From the NCBI RefSeq assembly GCF_029952445.1, contig NZ_JAQPPK010000014.1, positions 1 through 64,000 on the forward strand: a stretch of 64,000 nucleotides of DNA, given 5' to 3'. Below, one piece after another: positions 3,412-57,393 of the stretch. The position numbers and the translations under genes are program-made. Every line of letters starts with the position of its first letter. Positions within the stretch are counted from its first letter, which is position 1. Under the pieces are notes generated by a model, which did no database searches, was not told the DNA's origin, and saw only the letters and a program-made list of their open reading frames with translations. Source of the DNA: Paenarthrobacter nitroguajacolicus. GTDB taxonomy: Bacteria; Actinomycetota; Actinomycetes; Actinomycetales; Micrococcaceae.

Positions 3412-3424
3412 GAAGCAACCCTAT

Positions 3425-3485
3425 GTTGCGGGGCCTGCTCTGCGTGGTTAGGCGTGGGTTTACCGCGTAGAGCGGGCCTCGCAAC
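3425..3485. repeat. Family B GC-rich palindrome, copy 1
   Basis: Inverted arms of 20 bp (3425-3444 and 3466-3485) share the arm consensus GCGAGGCCCGCTCTGCG with three mismatches between arms. It lies between the kinase start and the DUF559-type gene. Confidence 0.8.
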
Positions 3486-3498
3486 GGGCGCCTACCCC

Positions 3499-3559
3499 GT
3501 TGTGAGGCCCGCTCTACGCCCTATTCGTCCACAACGAAACGCAGACCGGGCCTCACAAC
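3499..3559. repeat. Family B GC-rich palindrome, copy 2
   Basis: A second copy only 13 bp after copy 1. Arms 3499-3518 and 3540-3559 are inverted with two mismatches in 20. The total length of 61 bp equals that of copy 1, so the two behave as a tandem pair. Confidence 0.8.
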
Positions 3560-3614
3560 GCCTGTGGAGGAGAAGTCCCCGCCCCTCATCGGCGCGATTT
3601 CTGTGGATAACTGA

Positions 3615-4577
3615 ATGCGGACCATCGTTTCCCGCGAGCATTGTTCAATGCGGAAACCTAACCCTTTGCCGGTAAACGTTGACCCCCGGGGCTTCCTGGT
3701 CGCTGAGGCCTATGCCGCTGGAGTGCCTCGTTGGCGGCTCCAGGCCAGTGAGCTCGTGACCCCCAGTCGTGGTATTCGACTGGCCAAGGCGGGGGAACGC
3801 GATCTTGCCATCGTGGCGCGGCTGCACACCGCTGTGACTCCGAGATGCGCAGTCAGCCACATCACGGCAGCACTCCTTTGGTCAATCCCGCTCCCGATGT
3901 ACCTGGAGGACGAGGGGGCAGCAGGGCCGATCCACGTCACTCGCCGGCACGAGATCGGTCGCGTGAAGCGTCGCGGCGTCGTCGGACATCGGGCGCCGCT
4001 CCTGGCCAGGGATGTTCGGGTGGTGAATGGAGTCCAACTCACCTCGCCGGAATGGACTTGGGTGGACCTGGCACGGCACCTTGGGAGGTCATCGCTCGTA
4101 GCGGCCGGGGACGCCCTACTTAAACGTAAGGATCCGCTCACCTCAATTGAAGCCATTCAAGAAGTCATCGACCGCCGTCCAAAGGTCAAAGGTATCCAGA
4201 TGGCGCGCGCCATCCTTCCTCTGCTACGAGCCGGTGTCGACTCGCCCCAGGAGTCACGCTTGCGTTTGAAGATTCTCGACGCCGGTTTCCCGGAGCCTGC
4301 CGTAACGCAGCCGGTCTTCGACGATCACGGTAACTACATTTCGACTCCTGACCTGCAATACAAGGAGTACAAGATTGCCCTCGAATACGAAGGTGACCAC
4401 CACCGATCAGACCCGGTCCAGTGGGGCAAGGACATTGAACGCGACGACCGGCTGCGGGCGTTGGGGTGGACCGTGCTCCGCTTCACGGACGTCCAGATGA
4501 AGGGCGGCTGGGGCCACGCTGAAAAAAAGATCCAGGACGCTCTGCTGTCCCGCGGCTGGCGGCGCCTGCCTTCGTGA
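3615..4577 (+). CDS. DUF559/Vsr-like endonuclease-domain protein
   Basis: A 320-residue protein with two parts. The N-terminal ~190 residues resemble the AbiEi-like helix-turn-helix module of actinobacterial DUF559 proteins (RGFLVAEAYAAGVPRWRLQA; later AVSHITAALLW). The C-terminal ~90 residues look like a very-short-patch-repair type nuclease fold: DLQYKEYKIALEYEGDHH near 245-262, then DDRLRALGWTVLRFT. The acidic D, E and H residues fit a restriction-type active site. Function is unknown; DNA repair, antitoxin-like or repeat-linked roles are possible. The start may instead be the ATG at 3648; neither has a clear ribosome binding site. Family-B repeats lie on both sides. Confidence 0.75.
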   Translation: MRTIVSREHCSMRKPNPLPVNVDPRGFLVAEAYAAGVPRWRLQASELVTPSRGIRLAKAGERDLAIVARLHTAVTPRCAVSHITAALLWSIPLPMYLEDEGAAGPIHVTRRHEIGRVKRRGVVGHRAPLLARDVRVVNGVQLTSPEWTWVDLARHLGRSSLVAAGDALLKRKDPLTSIEAIQEVIDRRPKVKGIQMARAILPLLRAGVDSPQESRLRLKILDAGFPEPAVTQPVFDDHGNYISTPDLQYKEYKIALEYEGDHHRSDPVQWGKDIERDDRLRALGWTVLRFTDVQMKGGWGHAEKKIQDALLSRGWRRLPS

Positions 4578-5070
4578 GTCGGGTTGCTTGCGCAGAGTGG
4601 GCCTCGCAAGGGTGGGGGTGGATTTGTGGGGCCTGGTTTGCGTGGCAAACCCAGGAGGTGGAGCGCAGAGCGGGCCTCGCAAGGGTGGGGGTGGATTTGT
4701 GGGGCCTGCTTTGCGTGCCAAACCTAGGAGGTGGAGCGCTGAGTGGGCCTCGCAAGGGTGGGGGTGGATTTGTGGGGCCCGGTTTGCGTGGTTCGTTGGG
4801 GGTATGACACGCAGAGTGGGCCTTGCAAGGGTGGGGGTGGATTTGTGGGGCCTGGTTTGCGTGGTTCGTTGGGGGTATGACACGCAGAGTGGGCCTCGCA
4901 AGGGTGGGGGTGGATTTGTGGGGCCTGCTTTGCGTGGTTCGTTGGGGGTATGACACGCAGAGCGGGCCTCGCAACGCAGAATGACGCAAAACGAGCCCGC
5001 CAACGAAACACGATAAACTCTCCGTATCCCACCACCCGCGACATTTACGCGAACTAAGACGGAGACTTTT
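4578..5070. other. Gene-free stretch upstream of purH
   Basis: This 493-bp gap is mostly filled by the 73-bp tandem array (4591-4975). The last ~90 bp hold the purH promoter region, which is more AT-rich (around GATAAACTCT), and the ribosome binding site GGAG at 5061. Long open frames on both strands here are a consequence of the 73-bp periodicity combined with high GC and do not look like genes. Confidence 0.7.
4591..4975. repeat. 73-bp tandem array, five units, related to family B
   Basis: Units begin at 4591, 4664, 4737, 4810 and 4883, with a partial sixth from 4956 to 4975; the spacing is exactly 73 bp each time. Every unit starts CGCAGAG(T/C)GGGCCTCGCAA, continues with GGGTGGGGGTGGATTTGTGG, and ends in one of two linkers: CAAACC(C/T)AGGAGGTGGAG in units 1-2, or TTCGTTGGGGGTATGACA in units 3-5. 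The unit start and the GGGGCCTGGTTTGCG segment form an imperfect inverted pair like the family-B palindromes. The array is G-rich on the plus strand. It sits between the nuclease gene and purH. Confidence 0.9.
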
Positions 5071-7866: not shown

Positions 7867-10437
<2,571 letters not shown>

Positions 10438-11680: not shown

Positions 11681-11748
11681 ACCCAACTAGGTGACAGCAC
11701 ATGCTCCAGTGATGGCTCAGTGCGACGTTTACTGTCACCTAGTTGGGT
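11681..11748. repeat. Family A 68-bp palindrome, copy 1
   Basis: Perfect 17-bp terminal arms, ACCCAACTAGGTGACAG and its complement, bound a 68-bp element. The inner arms are of mixed type: the left one carries the ACATG core seen in copy 4, the right one the ACGTTTA core seen in copy 2. It lies between divergent genes, so it is not simply a terminator. Confidence 0.9.
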
Positions 11749-17335: not shown

Positions 17336-18826
17336 CTATTCTCCTCGGAGTACTTCGATGGGACGGATACGGGCTGTCAGCAGCGCCGGAACCAGCGCGC
17401 CGATAATGGCGACGGCGAACACAGCTGCGATGCCTGCTGCGAGGACGCCGGGGGAGACGCTGGCCGTGACGGAGGTGAGCAATTGCGAGGCCCCACCAAA
17501 AGGTCCTCCCTGCCCGCCTCCGCCGAAGCCGCCGCCTCCGGGGACGGCGCCGTTGGGCACGGCCCCGGCAAGGCCGCCGCCGCGCTGGGTGGTGGTGGCC
17601 GCCGTCGTGCTGGTGTTCGAGCTGATCAGCGCGGAGGCGATGCCGCCGCTGGCGAACGAAGCGATCACTGCGCCCACCACGCTGCCCATGGCGACCAGGA
17701 CCAGGGACTCAAGAACAAACTGCAGCCCAATGGTGCGGTTGGGGGCGCCGATGGCCTTGAGCACGCCGATTTCACGACGCCGCTCGCGGACCAGCATGAC
17801 CATGATCAGCAGGATGATGATCCCCGCCGTGGCGAGGGCCGCGATGAACGCGACCAGTGAGATGTTCTTGACGCTGTCCAGTGAGCTGACCGCGGTTTCG
17901 AGGTTGCGCTGGCCCTGTGTGACGTCCGCTTTGTCCGCGCCGAGGGCGTTCTGGACAGCGGTTTTGGTGCTGTCCACATTCTCCATGCTGTTGACGGTGA
18001 CGATCATGGTGGACAGTTCGTCCGGTGTCGCGGCCAGGGTTTGGGCTTCGGGGAGCGTCACGTAGACGGCGTTGTTGCCGAACGCGGTTCCGGCGTCGAA
18101 GATGCCTGCCACTGTGAAGGTCTTGTCCTGGATGGTGAAGGTTGATCCCACGCTCAGGTTGTTCTTGGTGGCCAATGATGTGCCTACCAGGGCCTTGTCA
18201 CCGGCGGTGGTGTAGTCGCCCAGGCCGGTGCCGCTGGTGATGTTCAGCGCCTTGCCCGTGCTGTCCACCTCCGCTCCGATGCCCGTTGCCGTGATGGGAA
18301 GGGCACGAGCGGGCTGGGTAGTTGTCCCGTTGGTACCCGTGGTTCCGCTGGTACCCGTGGTTCCGCTGGAGTTGTTGCGGTTGCCCAGCGTGCCCGCATC
18401 AATGGCGGCCGTCAGATTGGTGCTGACCGATGCCTGCTGGCCGCCAGGACCGAAGCCCCCGCCTTGCCCCGTCTGCTGGGTGGTGCCCGTAGTGCCAGTG
18501 GTGCTGGTGGTTCCCGTTGTTGCCGTCTGCAGGCGCAGGGCCTTCGTTCCGACTACGGACGTAACATTGGCTACCGAAGCCGCTGTCTGGGCTTCCGTCG
18601 TCGTGAGTGGTTCACCGCCGCCTTCGAAGCCCTGTCCACCGGCCGGGTTTACCGTGAGGGTGGTGCCCACCGAAGCGTTGAGCTCCTGCACCTTGGACCC
18701 TACGGCCTGGTTGGCTACCAGCATGGACAGGGCCAGTCCGATTGCTACGGCAAGAACTGCGACCACCGCCGCTGTTCTGATTTTGTTGCGGAAGGCATTG
18801 CCTACGCTTCGGGCAAGGACGCTCAC
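17336..18826 (-). CDS. FtsX-type ABC permease with Thr/Gly-rich insert
   Basis: A 496-residue permease: N-terminal helix at about 18-38, a MacB_PCD-like extracellular domain, then three helices with the FtsX motif VRERRREIGVLKAIGA. Two low-complexity inserts are striking: a TTGTTSTTGTTGTT-type run near residues 105-120 and SGTTGTSGTTGTNGTT near 150-170, plus a Gly-rich stretch near 420-440. All lie on the predicted outer side. Both inserts stay in frame, so it is not a frameshifted gene. The GTG start at 18826 has AGAGGAG 4-5 nt upstream, directly after a strong leader hairpin. It is co-transcribed with the following ATPase. Confidence 0.88.
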   Translation of the reverse strand: MSVLARSVGNAFRNKIRTAAVVAVLAVAIGLALSMLVANQAVGSKVQELNASVGTTLTVNPAGGQGFEGGGEPLTTTEAQTAASVANVTSVVGTKALRLQTATTGTTSTTGTTGTTQQTGQGGGFGPGGQQASVSTNLTAAIDAGTLGNRNNSSGTTGTSGTTGTNGTTTQPARALPITATGIGAEVDSTGKALNITSGTGLGDYTTAGDKALVGTSLATKNNLSVGSTFTIQDKTFTVAGIFDAGTAFGNNAVYVTLPEAQTLAATPDELSTMIVTVNSMENVDSTKTAVQNALGADKADVTQGQRNLETAVSSLDSVKNISLVAFIAALATAGIIILLIMVMLVRERRREIGVLKAIGAPNRTIGLQFVLESLVLVAMGSVVGAVIASFASGGIASALISSNTSTTAATTTQRGGGLAGAVPNGAVPGGGGFGGGGQGGPFGGASQLLTSVTASVSPGVLAAGIAAVFAVAIIGALVPALLTARIRPIEVLRGE

Positions 18827-24423: not shown

Positions 24424-24482
24424 ACAGTGAGTCAAGCATCGCTTACATACTCCAACGCAAGGATTACCCTTAAGTACCCCCT

Positions 24483-24537
24483 GCGAGGCCCGTTATGCAG
24501 GGATAATCCCTCCAATTCCACGCAGGGCGGGCCCCGC
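24483..24537. repeat. Family B GC-rich palindrome, copy 3
   Basis: Arms 24483-24498 (GCGAGGCCCGTTATGC) and 24522-24537 (GCAGGGCGGGCCCCGC) match at 12 of 16 paired positions, the most degenerate copy. The centre holds a small GGGATAATCCC hairpin. Confidence 0.6.
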
Positions 24538-24678
24538 AACGGCAGGAGTTGCGTGCATTGCGTCCCGCATCCGGGCTTGGCGGGTCCAATCGCCTCGCCA
24601 CAAGCAAGATGGCCGAGCCTAGGCTTGAAGCAAGAAGATGTCCCCGGCCTCTGAACGCCCGGGATCAGGAGAAACAAG

Positions 24679-31675: not shown

Positions 31676-31685
31676 TCCAAACGTT

Positions 31686-31740
31686 GCGGGGCCCGCTCTG
31701 CACGTCATATCCCCAGGATGGCGTGCAGAGCGGGCCTCGC
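31686..31740. repeat. Family B GC-rich palindrome, copy 4
   Basis: The best-conserved copy: arms 31686-31703 (GCGGGGCCCGCTCTGCAC) and 31723-31740 match at 17 of 18 paired positions. It follows the DavB-like stop codon by 10 bp and ends 6 bp before the convergent carbonic-anhydrase stop, so it can act as a bidirectional terminator. Confidence 0.85.
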
Positions 31741-31746
31741 ATCCGT

Positions 31747-32282: not shown

Positions 32283-32350
32283 TCCCAACTAAGTAGCAGC
32301 AAACGTCGCTATGAAGGGTCAGTGGAACGTTTACTGTCACCTAGTTGGGT
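32283..32350. repeat. Family A 68-bp palindrome, copy 2
   Basis: Imperfect palindrome of exactly 68 bp; outer 23-bp arms match at 19 of 23 positions, with the AAACGT core in both arms. It sits between purU and the gamma-CA gene, which run in the same direction. Confidence 0.85.
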
Positions 32351-32357
32351 GAAGGGG

Positions 32358-33209
32358 CTAGTTGAACACCACGGTCCGGGTGCCGTCCAGGAGCACGCGG
32401 TGTTCGGCGTGCCACTGGACAGCCTGGGCCAACGTGCGTCCCTCGACGTCGCGGCCCATCTGGACGAACTGGGCGGCGGTGCGGGCGTGGTCCACCCGGA
32501 TCACTTCCTGCTCGATGATCGGACCCTCATCCAGGTCGGCGGTCACATAGTGGGCTGTTGCGCCGATGATCTTCACGCCGCGCGCGTGGGCCTGGTGGTA
32601 CGGCTTGGCTCCCTTGAACGAGGGGAGGAACGAGTGGTGGATGTTGATGGCCCGGCCGTTCAATTCCGTGCAGAGATCGTTGGAAAGGACCTGCATGTAC
32701 CTTGCCAGGACGGTGAGCTCAACATCGTGCTCGGCGATCAGCTTCAACAGCGTCGCTTCGGCCTGCGGCTTGGTATCTGCGGTGACGGGGATGTGGTGGA
32801 ACGGGATGCCGTAGAACTCCGCCAAGGACTCAAGGTCGCGGTGGTTGGACACGATGGCCGGAACCTCGATGGGCAGGGTTCCGGTGCGCTGCTGGAACAA
32901 CAAGTCGTTGAGGCAGTGCGCGTCCTTGGAACACAGGATGAGGGTGCGCACCTTTTGGCCCACGGGGTTGATCTGCCAAGTCATGCCGAAGGTTTCGGCG
33001 ACAGGCTGCAGGGCCGCTGCGAGTTCCGCCTGGGTGCTCGACGTCGTTGCCTCCACGCGCATGAAGAAGTTGCCTGTGGTGGGGCTTCCGTACTGTTGCG
33101 AATCGGCGATGTTGCACCCCGCACCAAGAAGGGCGCCGGCAACAGCGTGGACGATGCCGGGACGGTCGGGGCAGGAGAGGGTCACAACAAAAGCGGTGGA
33201 TTCAGTCAC
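32358..33209 (-). CDS. purU: Formyltetrahydrofolate deformylase PurU
   Basis: PurU hydrolyses 10-formyl-THF to formate and THF, balancing one-carbon pools. The 283-residue protein has an N-terminal ACT domain (FVVTLSCPDRPGIVHAVAGA) and a C-terminal formyl-transferase fold with catalytic residues in VSNHRDLE, INIHHSFLPSFKGAKPYHQA and TADLDEGPIIEQE. The GTG at 33209 is chosen; TAGGCT ends 7 nt upstream, so the mRNA may be leaderless. It is divergent from glyA and belongs functionally with glyA, folD and purH. Confidence 0.95.
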   Translation of the reverse strand: MTESTAFVVTLSCPDRPGIVHAVAGALLGAGCNIADSQQYGSPTTGNFFMRVEATTSSTQAELAAALQPVAETFGMTWQINPVGQKVRTLILCSKDAHCLNDLLFQQRTGTLPIEVPAIVSNHRDLESLAEFYGIPFHHIPVTADTKPQAEATLLKLIAEHDVELTVLARYMQVLSNDLCTELNGRAINIHHSFLPSFKGAKPYHQAHARGVKIIGATAHYVTADLDEGPIIEQEVIRVDHARTAAQFVQMGRDVEGRTLAQAVQWHAEHRVLLDGTRTVVFN

Positions 33210-33222: not shown

Positions 33223-33249
33223 CCGGTGCAGCCTTGTTGTACTGTTAAC

Positions 33250-33325
33250 GGGTCGCAACTGGCGTTGGGTGGACTACCACCAGGGAGCGGCAATCATGAA
33301 GACCACGGATCGTACGCCTGGGCCG
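33250..33325 (+). ncRNA. ZTP riboswitch (pfl motif) ahead of glyA
   Basis: The conserved elements appear in order: GGGTCGCAACTGGCG at 33250-33264, a GGTGG-ACTA-CCACC hairpin at 33268-33281, the conserved AGGGAGCGG at 33282-33290, a variable linker, and the CGTACGCCTGGGC pseudoknot-strand segment at 33311-33323. These match the published pfl motif as I know it. ZTP/AICAR riboswitches switch on one-carbon and purine genes when 10-formyl-THF is short. The motif lies about 120 bp upstream of glyA, the expected target. The expression platform (33326-33446) is not obvious. Confidence 0.88.
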
Positions 33326-33446
33326 AGGGTCATGTCTTACCGTCGCACGCACGTGACCGATGCCTCCCGTCATCAAGGGGACGCGGGAATGCTGCTGCCG
33401 GTAGCCTGACCTGTAGCACCACCCGTTGCCTAGCCAGGAGATCTCC

Positions 33447-45487: not shown

Positions 45488-45552
45488 GCAACGCGGGGTC
45501 ACTTATGGCCCATCCGGAGGCGGATTATGGGCCATAAGTGACCCCGCGTTGC
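45488..45552. repeat. Perfect 25-bp inverted repeat
   Basis: Arms 45488-45512 and 45528-45552 are perfectly inverted over 25 bp (GCAACGCGGGGTCACTTATG then GCCCA), with a 15-nt loop. It lies between convergent genes (stops at 45484 and 45560), so a bidirectional terminator is one role. Such exactness suggests recent spread or selection as a mobile palindrome. It differs from families A and B; no second copy was seen. Confidence 0.9.
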
Positions 45553-50120: not shown

Positions 50121-50188
50121 ACCCAACTAAGTAACAGCAAACGTTCCACTGAGGCGTCAGTTGAACGTTTGCTGTCACCTACATGGGC
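50121..50188. repeat. Family A 68-bp palindrome, copy 3
   Basis: Starts 2 bp after the SBP stop and ends before the convergent hydrolase stop. The inner arms, ACAGCAAACGTTC and its complement, are perfect; the outer right arm is eroded (CACCTACATGGGC for CACCTAGTTGGGT). Confidence 0.85.
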
Positions 50189-57326: not shown

Positions 57327-57393
57327 CCCAACCAGGTAACAGCACATGCTCTACTGAGTGCTCAGTGGAACATGTGCTGTCACCCAGTTGGGT
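57326..57393. repeat. Family A 68-bp palindrome, copy 4
   Basis: Outer 23-bp arms match at 20 of 23 positions, with ACATG cores in both arms (AACAGCACATG against CATGTGCTGT). It lies between the M20 gene stop and the ohrR promoter, genes in the same direction. Confidence 0.9.

Follow-up and report, generated by a model that had tools for sequence, protein, structure and literature searches.

What ties a predicted nuclease gene to the palindromes that bracket it, and why do the same palindromes recur elsewhere in the genome? The question is raised by a locus within the first 64,000 nucleotides of contig NZ_JAQPPK010000014.1 (assembly GCF_029952445.1) of Paenarthrobacter nitroguajacolicus, an Arthrobacter-like soil bacterium; this whole stretch is hereafter called the window. 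To our knowledge, RAYT is the dedicated enzyme partner known for dispersed bacterial palindromes. RAYT genes are single-copy and vertically inherited, and the repetitive extragenic palindromic (REP) sequences that they accompany can outlive them. The best overall explanation of the present locus, to which we assign a probability of about 0.55, is that the nuclease gene and its palindromes form one two-part system that would be kept by the protein binding and cutting its sites. Support comes from the flanking of the gene, the pairing of nuclease and palindrome, the dispersal of the palindromes (two families genome-wide and a third in the window), their fixed geometry, the conservation of candidate active-site residues, the absence of RAYT and a tree that resembles one of gene loss. 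Among the open-access PMC articles listed, none describes DUF559/AbiEi-Vsr nucleases with palindromes. The bracketing points to a nuclease-repeat partnership in soil actinobacteria that is apparently undescribed.

A sequence-only reading of the window had placed the nuclease gene at 3615-4577. The place is right, but the start is probably the ATG at 3648, because an in-frame TGA lies upstream of it in 4 of the 15 orthologues described below and the ATG itself is common to all 15. So delimited, the gene (3648-4577, plus strand; 309 codons, 309 amino acids) lies between the gene for a BadF-type ATPase (badF) and purH, both named from Pfam. The unit of the surrounding palindromes, termed family 1, is a 63-bp element made of two inverted 21-bp half-sites around a 21-bp centre. 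Two such elements (given, like all palindromes here, without strand) were found directly upstream of the gene, as had been claimed, at 3424-3486 (half-sites 3424-3444 and 3466-3486) and 3498-3560 (by half-site matches), and the strong hairpin at 3465-3519 is the junction between two family-1 units. Downstream, a lone right half-site on the plus strand (4591-4611, a half-site match) opens an array of five elements 73 bp apart, at 4622-4684, 4695-4757, 4768-4830, 4841-4903 and 4914-4976, the last with a right half-site that matches the genome-scan pattern exactly. This array had been described as related to the upstream palindromes; its position was correct, but its units belong to the same family.

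A degenerate half-site pattern derived from the window's own family-1 elements, TTGYGRGGCCYGNTNTGCR, gave 19 matches in the window at two mismatches or fewer, compared with a mean of 0.43 and a maximum of 2 in 100 dinucleotide shuffles, which rules out chance as the origin of these half-sites. At three mismatches or fewer, the whole genome contains 35 half-sites, compared with none for the reversed pattern. The dispersal proposed earlier is therefore real, with two more elements in the window itself: one at 31682-31744, where the orthologous place holds an element in 9 other genomes, and a degenerate one at 24479-24541, where it holds an element, in some cases degenerate, in 16 others. No terminator-like site was detected at the elements by a scan that covers loops of only 3-8 bases, the centre of the element being 21.

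A sample of 150 genomes of the genus yielded 16 matches to the protein at E ≤ 1e-60, one per genome, comprising 15 orthologues (71-100% identity) and one 41% relative; the nearest named orthologue, at 96% protein identity, is that of Paenarthrobacter nicotinovorans SSBW5. Family-1 half-sites (five mismatches or fewer) lie on both sides within 1.5 kb in all 15 orthologues, and a scan of 395 genomes of the family added seven orthologues, all seven flanked on both sides (six mismatches or fewer). Flanking of orthologues by inverted repeats, on which the sequence-only reading had made its proposal depend, was thus found throughout. The gene is adjoined by purH in 15 of 15 orthologues and by badF as well in 14; its location is conserved and it occurs once per genome. 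None of the 15 showed the repeated or variably located copies expected of an insertion sequence or composite transposon.

What had been missed is that much of the nuclease family shows the same arrangement with different palindromes. In another genus of this family, three homologues, at 51-54% identity in one comparison and 50-52% in another, are bracketed by palindromes of different sequence, one of them (L151; genomes, loci and contigs bear G, L and C numbers) partly by half-sites, as read by eye. Paralogues at 32-42% identity in this genome, in ten related genomes and in G002 are mostly bracketed by yet other palindromes: in 36 usable loci, counted with a low threshold that had no null of its own, palindromes were present on both sides in 27, on one side in 4 (L002, L005, L058, L060) and on neither in 5 (L061, L068, L072, L076, L078). 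An exact stretch of at least 14 bases is shared between the flanks of 30 of 35 paralogue loci (excluding L080, cut by a contig end, and L004), compared with 6 of 378 null positions. Instead of full palindromes, the flanks of these last five loci contain half-site-like stretches in tandem, for example CTCTCTCACATCCC, perhaps a direct-repeat variant.

The comparison was extended to 78 named loci from Arthrobacter, Paenarthrobacter, Microbacterium, Leifsonia, Agromyces, Pseudoclavibacter, Brevibacterium and others, 77 of them with full flanks. Because some of these appear to be the same strains as genomes of the genus sample (L210 and G096, for example), the two sets are not independent. Palindromes stand on both sides of 28 of 77 nucleases compared with 7 of 612 other genes in the same loci; the corresponding figures are 26 and 2 for a matched palindrome pair (cut at a score of 17, the 99th percentile of unmatched pairs), 38 and 6 for a 14-mer common to both flanks, and 66 and 109 for a palindrome on either side. 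Matched shifted positions gave 1 of 570 with palindromes on both sides (28 of 78 for the nucleases) and 61 of 570 with one on either side (67 of 78). Local duplication or chance at these nucleases is ruled out by the comparisons with shifted positions and with other real genes. No palindrome reached the threshold in 11 of the 77 (L211-L214, L216, L221, L236, L258, L259, L274, L286), among which L211-L214, L216 and L221 are family-1 orthologues with imperfect arms. A phylum-wide sample produced homologue matches in 27 of 296 genomes; 11 of its 29 loci gave no frame by the motif used, and the 18 with a usable frame have palindromes on both sides in 11 cases (unmatched in L156 and perhaps others), on one side in 6 (L158, L159, L162, L163, L166, L169) and on neither in 1 (L155).

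Of 29 nucleases bracketed on both sides, 27 have an upstream palindrome that is matched best by their own downstream one, with a median score of 31 compared with 7.5 (99th percentile 17) for palindromes of other nucleases; the partners compared came from nucleases of less than 55% identity, a skip list and a motif filter having left 88 nucleases. Palindrome span is rather constant (median 61 bp, middle half 59-66), and palindrome similarity drops with protein identity until it is near background below about 65%. Over 637 pairs of at least 45% identity, which are not independent of one another, element similarity has a partial rank correlation of 0.57 with the predicted AbiEi-like domain described below and of 0.28 with the nuclease domain, and so follows the former more closely. 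We regard a functional pairing of nuclease and palindrome as very probable indeed.

The same genome provides further instances. A dispersed palindrome at 45488-45552 belongs to family 2, which brackets a nuclease on contig C11 (locus L006), and four others, at 11682-11747, 32284-32349, 50122-50187 and 57327-57392, belong to family C, which brackets a nuclease on contig C27 (locus L004). Three palindrome families are therefore represented in the window, and the nuclease of each is found at a different place in the genome. The window's four family-C copies are additional to those at the C27 nuclease, and nine further stretches read from this genome contained none. Family 2 is represented genome-wide by 92 half-sites (46 forward and 46 reverse), and at least one half-site occurs in 103 of the 150 genomes, with the reversed control at 0 in all 150. 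Among the matches listed, 40 of 40 genomes with a family-2 nuclease (at least 66% identity) carry 13-130 half-sites, a count that leaves out one truncated match and treats the truncated gene of G050 as absent. Family-2 sites are missing beside all of 20 more distant nucleases that share 55-60% identity with that of family 2, half of them taken from genomes rich in family 2 and half from genomes poor in it; a third palindrome family lies beside 18 of the 20 on at least one side and beside 15 on both. At the place corresponding to window 32284-32360, genomes G066, G038 and G136 have a methyltransferase-like gene (named from sequence) that is missing here and in G296; in this genome the break falls at the edge of a family-C palindrome, and G038 is without most of the palindrome.

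Repeat number goes with the presence of the gene, as the sequence-only reading had envisaged. The 15 carriers contain 7, 30, 35, 40, 42, 42, 48, 50, 61, 63, 74, 77, 77, 80 and 85 family-1 half-sites, and 135 non-carriers contain 0-3 except for ten with 4, 7, 7, 10, 10, 25, 32, 33, 36 and 43. At least four half-sites are thus present in 15 of 15 carriers and 10 of 135 non-carriers (Fisher p 2e-14, a value that ignores relatedness). Repeats in genomes lacking the gene, which had been named as an outcome that would speak against a partnership, do occur in these ten, five of which fit gene loss on a tree. This tree was built from badF and part of purH, that is from two linked genes, has no settled root and allows few comparisons. 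On it, five gene-less genomes with 25-43 half-sites nest among carriers: G114 (25) stands beside carrier G079 (42; support 1.00), G083 (36) and G022 (32) beside carrier G059 (77; support 0.99), G032 (43) near carriers G136 (80) and G047 (77; support 0.40 for the pair and 0.97 for the trio), and the fifth, G065 (33), has a poorly supported place. Because repeat-bearing gene-less genomes nest among carriers, mostly with fewer half-sites, the gene has probably been lost several times and the repeats have probably become fewer after loss. No part of the nuclease gene was detected at the badF-purH junction of the ten repeat-bearing gene-less genomes; among junctions without the gene, one palindrome is left in G065, and palindrome-like remnants are present in G005, G127 and G145.

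What kind of protein is encoded? The sequence-only reading had named a DUF559-type nuclease with a Vsr-like fold. Pfam places DUF559 above and MTES_1575 below its cut-off, with no other match at E ≤ 1; a search of NCBIfam with the window protein gave no match. Among 69 homologues, MTES_1575 was detected in 67 and DUF559 in 49 at E ≤ 0.01. A structure model was computed from an alignment of 69 sequences, from which 10 of the 78 named loci had been left out (L262, with an internal stop, and nine partial or near-duplicate sequences), and has a mean predicted local distance difference test score of 92.1. In comparisons of this model, about residues 3-194 resemble the AbiEi antitoxin (6y8q; Z 11.5, root-mean-square deviation (rmsd) 6.0 over 177 residues) and also Rv2827c (1zel; Z 8.5, rmsd 4.0 over 181), and PADLOC-DB AbiEi profiles match the protein at E 5e-6. 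Over residues 197-304 the resemblance is to a homing endonuclease, I-Bth0305I, in its catalytic domain (3r3p; Z 12.4, rmsd 2.6 over 96 residues), and to Vsr (1cw0; Z 10.6, rmsd 2.6 over 100). The prediction is thus of a fusion protein in which a DNA-binding region like that of AbiEi is followed by a nuclease domain of the Vsr/I-Bth0305I (EDxHD) type. S199, E202, R206, D235, E246, E248, H252 and D262 are invariant in all 69 diverse homologues; of these, E202, D235, E246, E248, H252 and D262 are candidate active-site residues, their correspondence to EDxHD being read from residue order only.

The form in which such a protein might recognize its element, as hairpin or as duplex, can be approached from the way the arms vary. 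In 215 distinct family-1 elements, which are not independent and were collected with the centre set to 21 bp and the mismatches in each arm capped, the arms are complementary at 72.9% of positions compared with 75.0% after right arms were shuffled among elements, and the variable half-site positions vary independently on the two arms. A search with a free centre returned a 21-bp centre in 126 of 132 family-1 elements, and 45 of 54 neighbouring elements follow one another at 73 or 74 bp, which is nearly a whole number of helical turns. On balance, the lack of overall covariation between family-1 arms and the constant distance between half-sites suggest double-stranded protein sites, which would suit a dimer better than REP hairpins would. 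One report (PMC7319586) states that AbiEi and Rv2827c bind 23-bp inverted repeats, and with these proteins of type IV toxin-antitoxin systems the nuclease shares the 194-residue N-terminal fold and upstream inverted repeats of about 21-23 bp; here, however, a nuclease is fused to that fold, and sites are also found downstream and genome-wide. I-Bth0305I, according to another report (PMC3943268), dimerises on a target of nearly 60 bp. The likeness to I-Bth0305I and Vsr lies in the nuclease-domain fold (Vsr-like, from the model) and, for the former, in that long dimeric target. The present gene differs in being free-standing between badF and purH, in keeping its place and in having an AbiEi-like DNA-binding part. 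Gene-less badF-purH sites exist, but the target-like elements, which occur on both sides of the gene and also dispersed, are intact. A 63-bp element with two 21-bp half-sites would fit a dimer of the AbiEi-Vsr fusion, and dimeric binding through the AbiEi-like domain is in our view likely.

In the model that we favour, the protein would sit as a dimer on the double-stranded 63-bp element. Each of the inverted half-sites, about 21 bp long, would be contacted by one AbiEi-like domain, and the two Vsr/EDxHD-type nuclease domains would thereby come to lie over the 21-bp centre. Nicking or cutting in the centre might then elicit repair that keeps up the elements and occasionally copies or expands them, giving rise to arrays in tandem next to the gene as well as to copies dispersed between genes. 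Inheritance of the gene, present once and with badF and purH on either side, would be mainly vertical; occasionally the gene would be lost, after which the elements would decay. Each nuclease lineage would co-evolve with its own element sequence, so that several such pairs could exist in one genome. That nuclease action maintains or spreads the elements is a proposition for which we see the chances as even. Equally balanced is its widest form: a second, independent invention of the partnership between REPs and an enzyme, in which a large actinobacterial AbiEi-Vsr family, each member with its own two-half-site palindrome of about 60 bp, would act on duplex DNA as dimers and keep and seed copies, with several orthogonal pairs per genome. 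If true, dispersed palindromes would gain an enzyme partner unrelated to RAYT, represented by many natural pairs of nuclease and site; the common, little-studied DUF559/MTES_1575 proteins with an AbiEi-like region would acquire a function, several intergenic repeat families in Arthrobacter-like bacteria would be accounted for, and there would be a source of long-site nucleases with readable specificity.

Several observations weigh against this model. If the nuclease gene is active, it has to be explained why the intact sites around it escape destruction. The 31.7-kb and 24.5-kb sites are occupied in every sequence that gives both anchors (10 and 17 of 21, respectively, window included), the latter also in gene-less G022, G083 and G114, with some copies degenerate; because these orthologous places are always occupied, the dispersed copies examined are old, and no recent insertion polymorphism was found at the two sites compared. 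Extra copies near other nucleases are rare: a scan for half-site clusters over 873,042 bases (0.87 Mb) around 50 nuclease loci found 4, compared with 1 for the reversed control. Many homologues have a palindrome on one side or none at the thresholds used. Repeats also occur where the gene is absent: 10 of 135 gene-less genomes carry at least four family-1 half-sites, and at least 10 family-2 half-sites are present in 28 of the 110 genomes, G050 among them, for which no family-2 nuclease of at least 66% identity is listed. On the two-gene tree, gene-less G065 (33) is poorly placed, with no clear nearest carrier; carrier G146 (40), next to the G059 group, lies near gene-less G083 (36); carrier G012 (7) groups with gene-less G004, away from other carriers; and some carriers are no richer than gene-less genomes (G040 with 30, G000, this genome, with 35). 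Finally, Foldseek E-values for the structure model are weak, with none at or below 0.001 (best 2.9e-3; I-Bth0305I 4.9e-3), and a profile of the 69 sequences found no convincing relative by sequence in the PDB (best E 0.8, a TetR regulator).

The age and stability of the dispersed sites, together with the AbiEi-like fold, would also suit a regulator or chromosome-organising factor, whose palindromes would be operators and dispersed binding sites that spread by ordinary recombination, while the nuclease acted elsewhere or rarely. Autoregulation by AbiEi and Rv2827c through inverted repeats is described in PMC7319586, the upstream elements here sit in the divergent badF/nuclease intergenic region, and family-1 arms lack overall covariation, as expected for a protein site. 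Autoregulation, however, requires no downstream copies, tandem arrays or tens of dispersed sites, and the active-site candidates are invariant in 69 diverse homologues. We consider this explanation rather unlikely, at about one chance in four.

A two-part system held in place also has to be weighed against a classical mobile unit, in which palindrome, nuclease and palindrome would move as a cassette, either like an insertion sequence or by homing into single palindromes; the palindromes would be its ends or its targets. The nuclease fold is that of a homing endonuclease, badF-purH sites without the gene exist, one of them (G065) with a single palindrome left, and carrier G012 stands apart from other carriers on the tree. 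Two family-1 elements of G083 are separated by a rhodanese gene (L327 1015-2039, G083:C60), and in this genome, G000, they are adjacent with no gene between them (L309 8059-8194, G000:C12); this case suggests that family-1 elements can bound gene gain or loss. Yet the nuclease gene occupies the same place by purH in 15 of 15 orthologues, and among the matches listed no genome has a second copy of one subfamily. Homologues are rare on plasmids and phages: searches with the window protein found them in 5 plasmid records out of 72,556 (E ≤ 1e-10) and in a single phage record out of 50,697 (E ≤ 1e-5), and a plasmid or phage origin was rejected. A mobile unit of this kind is accordingly improbable.

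The RAYT/REP comparison made by the sequence-only reading holds for the layout, since RAYT/REP pairs (REPtrons) and REPINs likewise have a gene flanked by palindromes that are also dispersed between genes; its hairpin-processing part is not supported, given the absence of overall arm covariation and the fixed spacing. In that view, single-stranded hairpins would be processed as by RAYT, with a Vsr-type nuclease replacing the Y1 transposase. The population pattern of a fixed single-copy gene with flanking and dispersed palindromes would agree with it; so would families 2, 3, C and Q, in which arms match within an element more than between elements, though these sets mix nuclease lineages, and single orthologous family-1 copies whose two arms underwent the like changes (L337 and L339, both from the 31.7-kb site). 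The arm match of family 1 given above, its constant centre and its 73-74 bp unit spacing speak against it, and we judge it very improbable. Different genes of one genome flanked by different repeats are also described for RAYT/REP (PMC3733652, PMC3116915). The differences are that RAYT is an HUH Y1 transposase whereas the protein here is AbiEi-like/Vsr-like and without PF01797, and that the element here is a 63-bp half-site pair which, in family 1, shows no overall arm covariation. By its enzyme, the window system is not a RAYT/REPtron. The RAYT domain (Y1_Tnp, PF01797) was found in 1 of 150 genus genomes by a search that was positive in 5 of 14 control genomes, which rules out RAYT as the mobiliser of these repeats; the sole genome with Y1_Tnp matches is G031 (C169, C38). 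CGTC-type REPs, according to PMC3733652, are dispersed palindromes without RAYT; they share this dispersal with the present elements and differ in that a cognate non-RAYT nuclease is present here.

A defence or toxin-antitoxin module, AbiE-like or restriction-like, whose palindromes would mark self DNA or control expression, agrees with the PADLOC-DB AbiEi matches but is hardly credible, as the neighbours are badF and purH rather than a toxin and the dispersed, lineage-specific palindromes would be left unexplained. No nucleotidyltransferase toxin gene adjoins the nuclease gene, the rest of the genome lying outside the toxin search, and by its neighbours the window system is not an AbiE module.

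The sole Rfam match in the window is a ZMP/ZTP riboswitch (RF01750) at 33245-33330 on the plus strand, with 41.5 bits, and two short tandem repeats are located at 8061-8107 and 18327-18369, with units of 22 bp and 18 bp.

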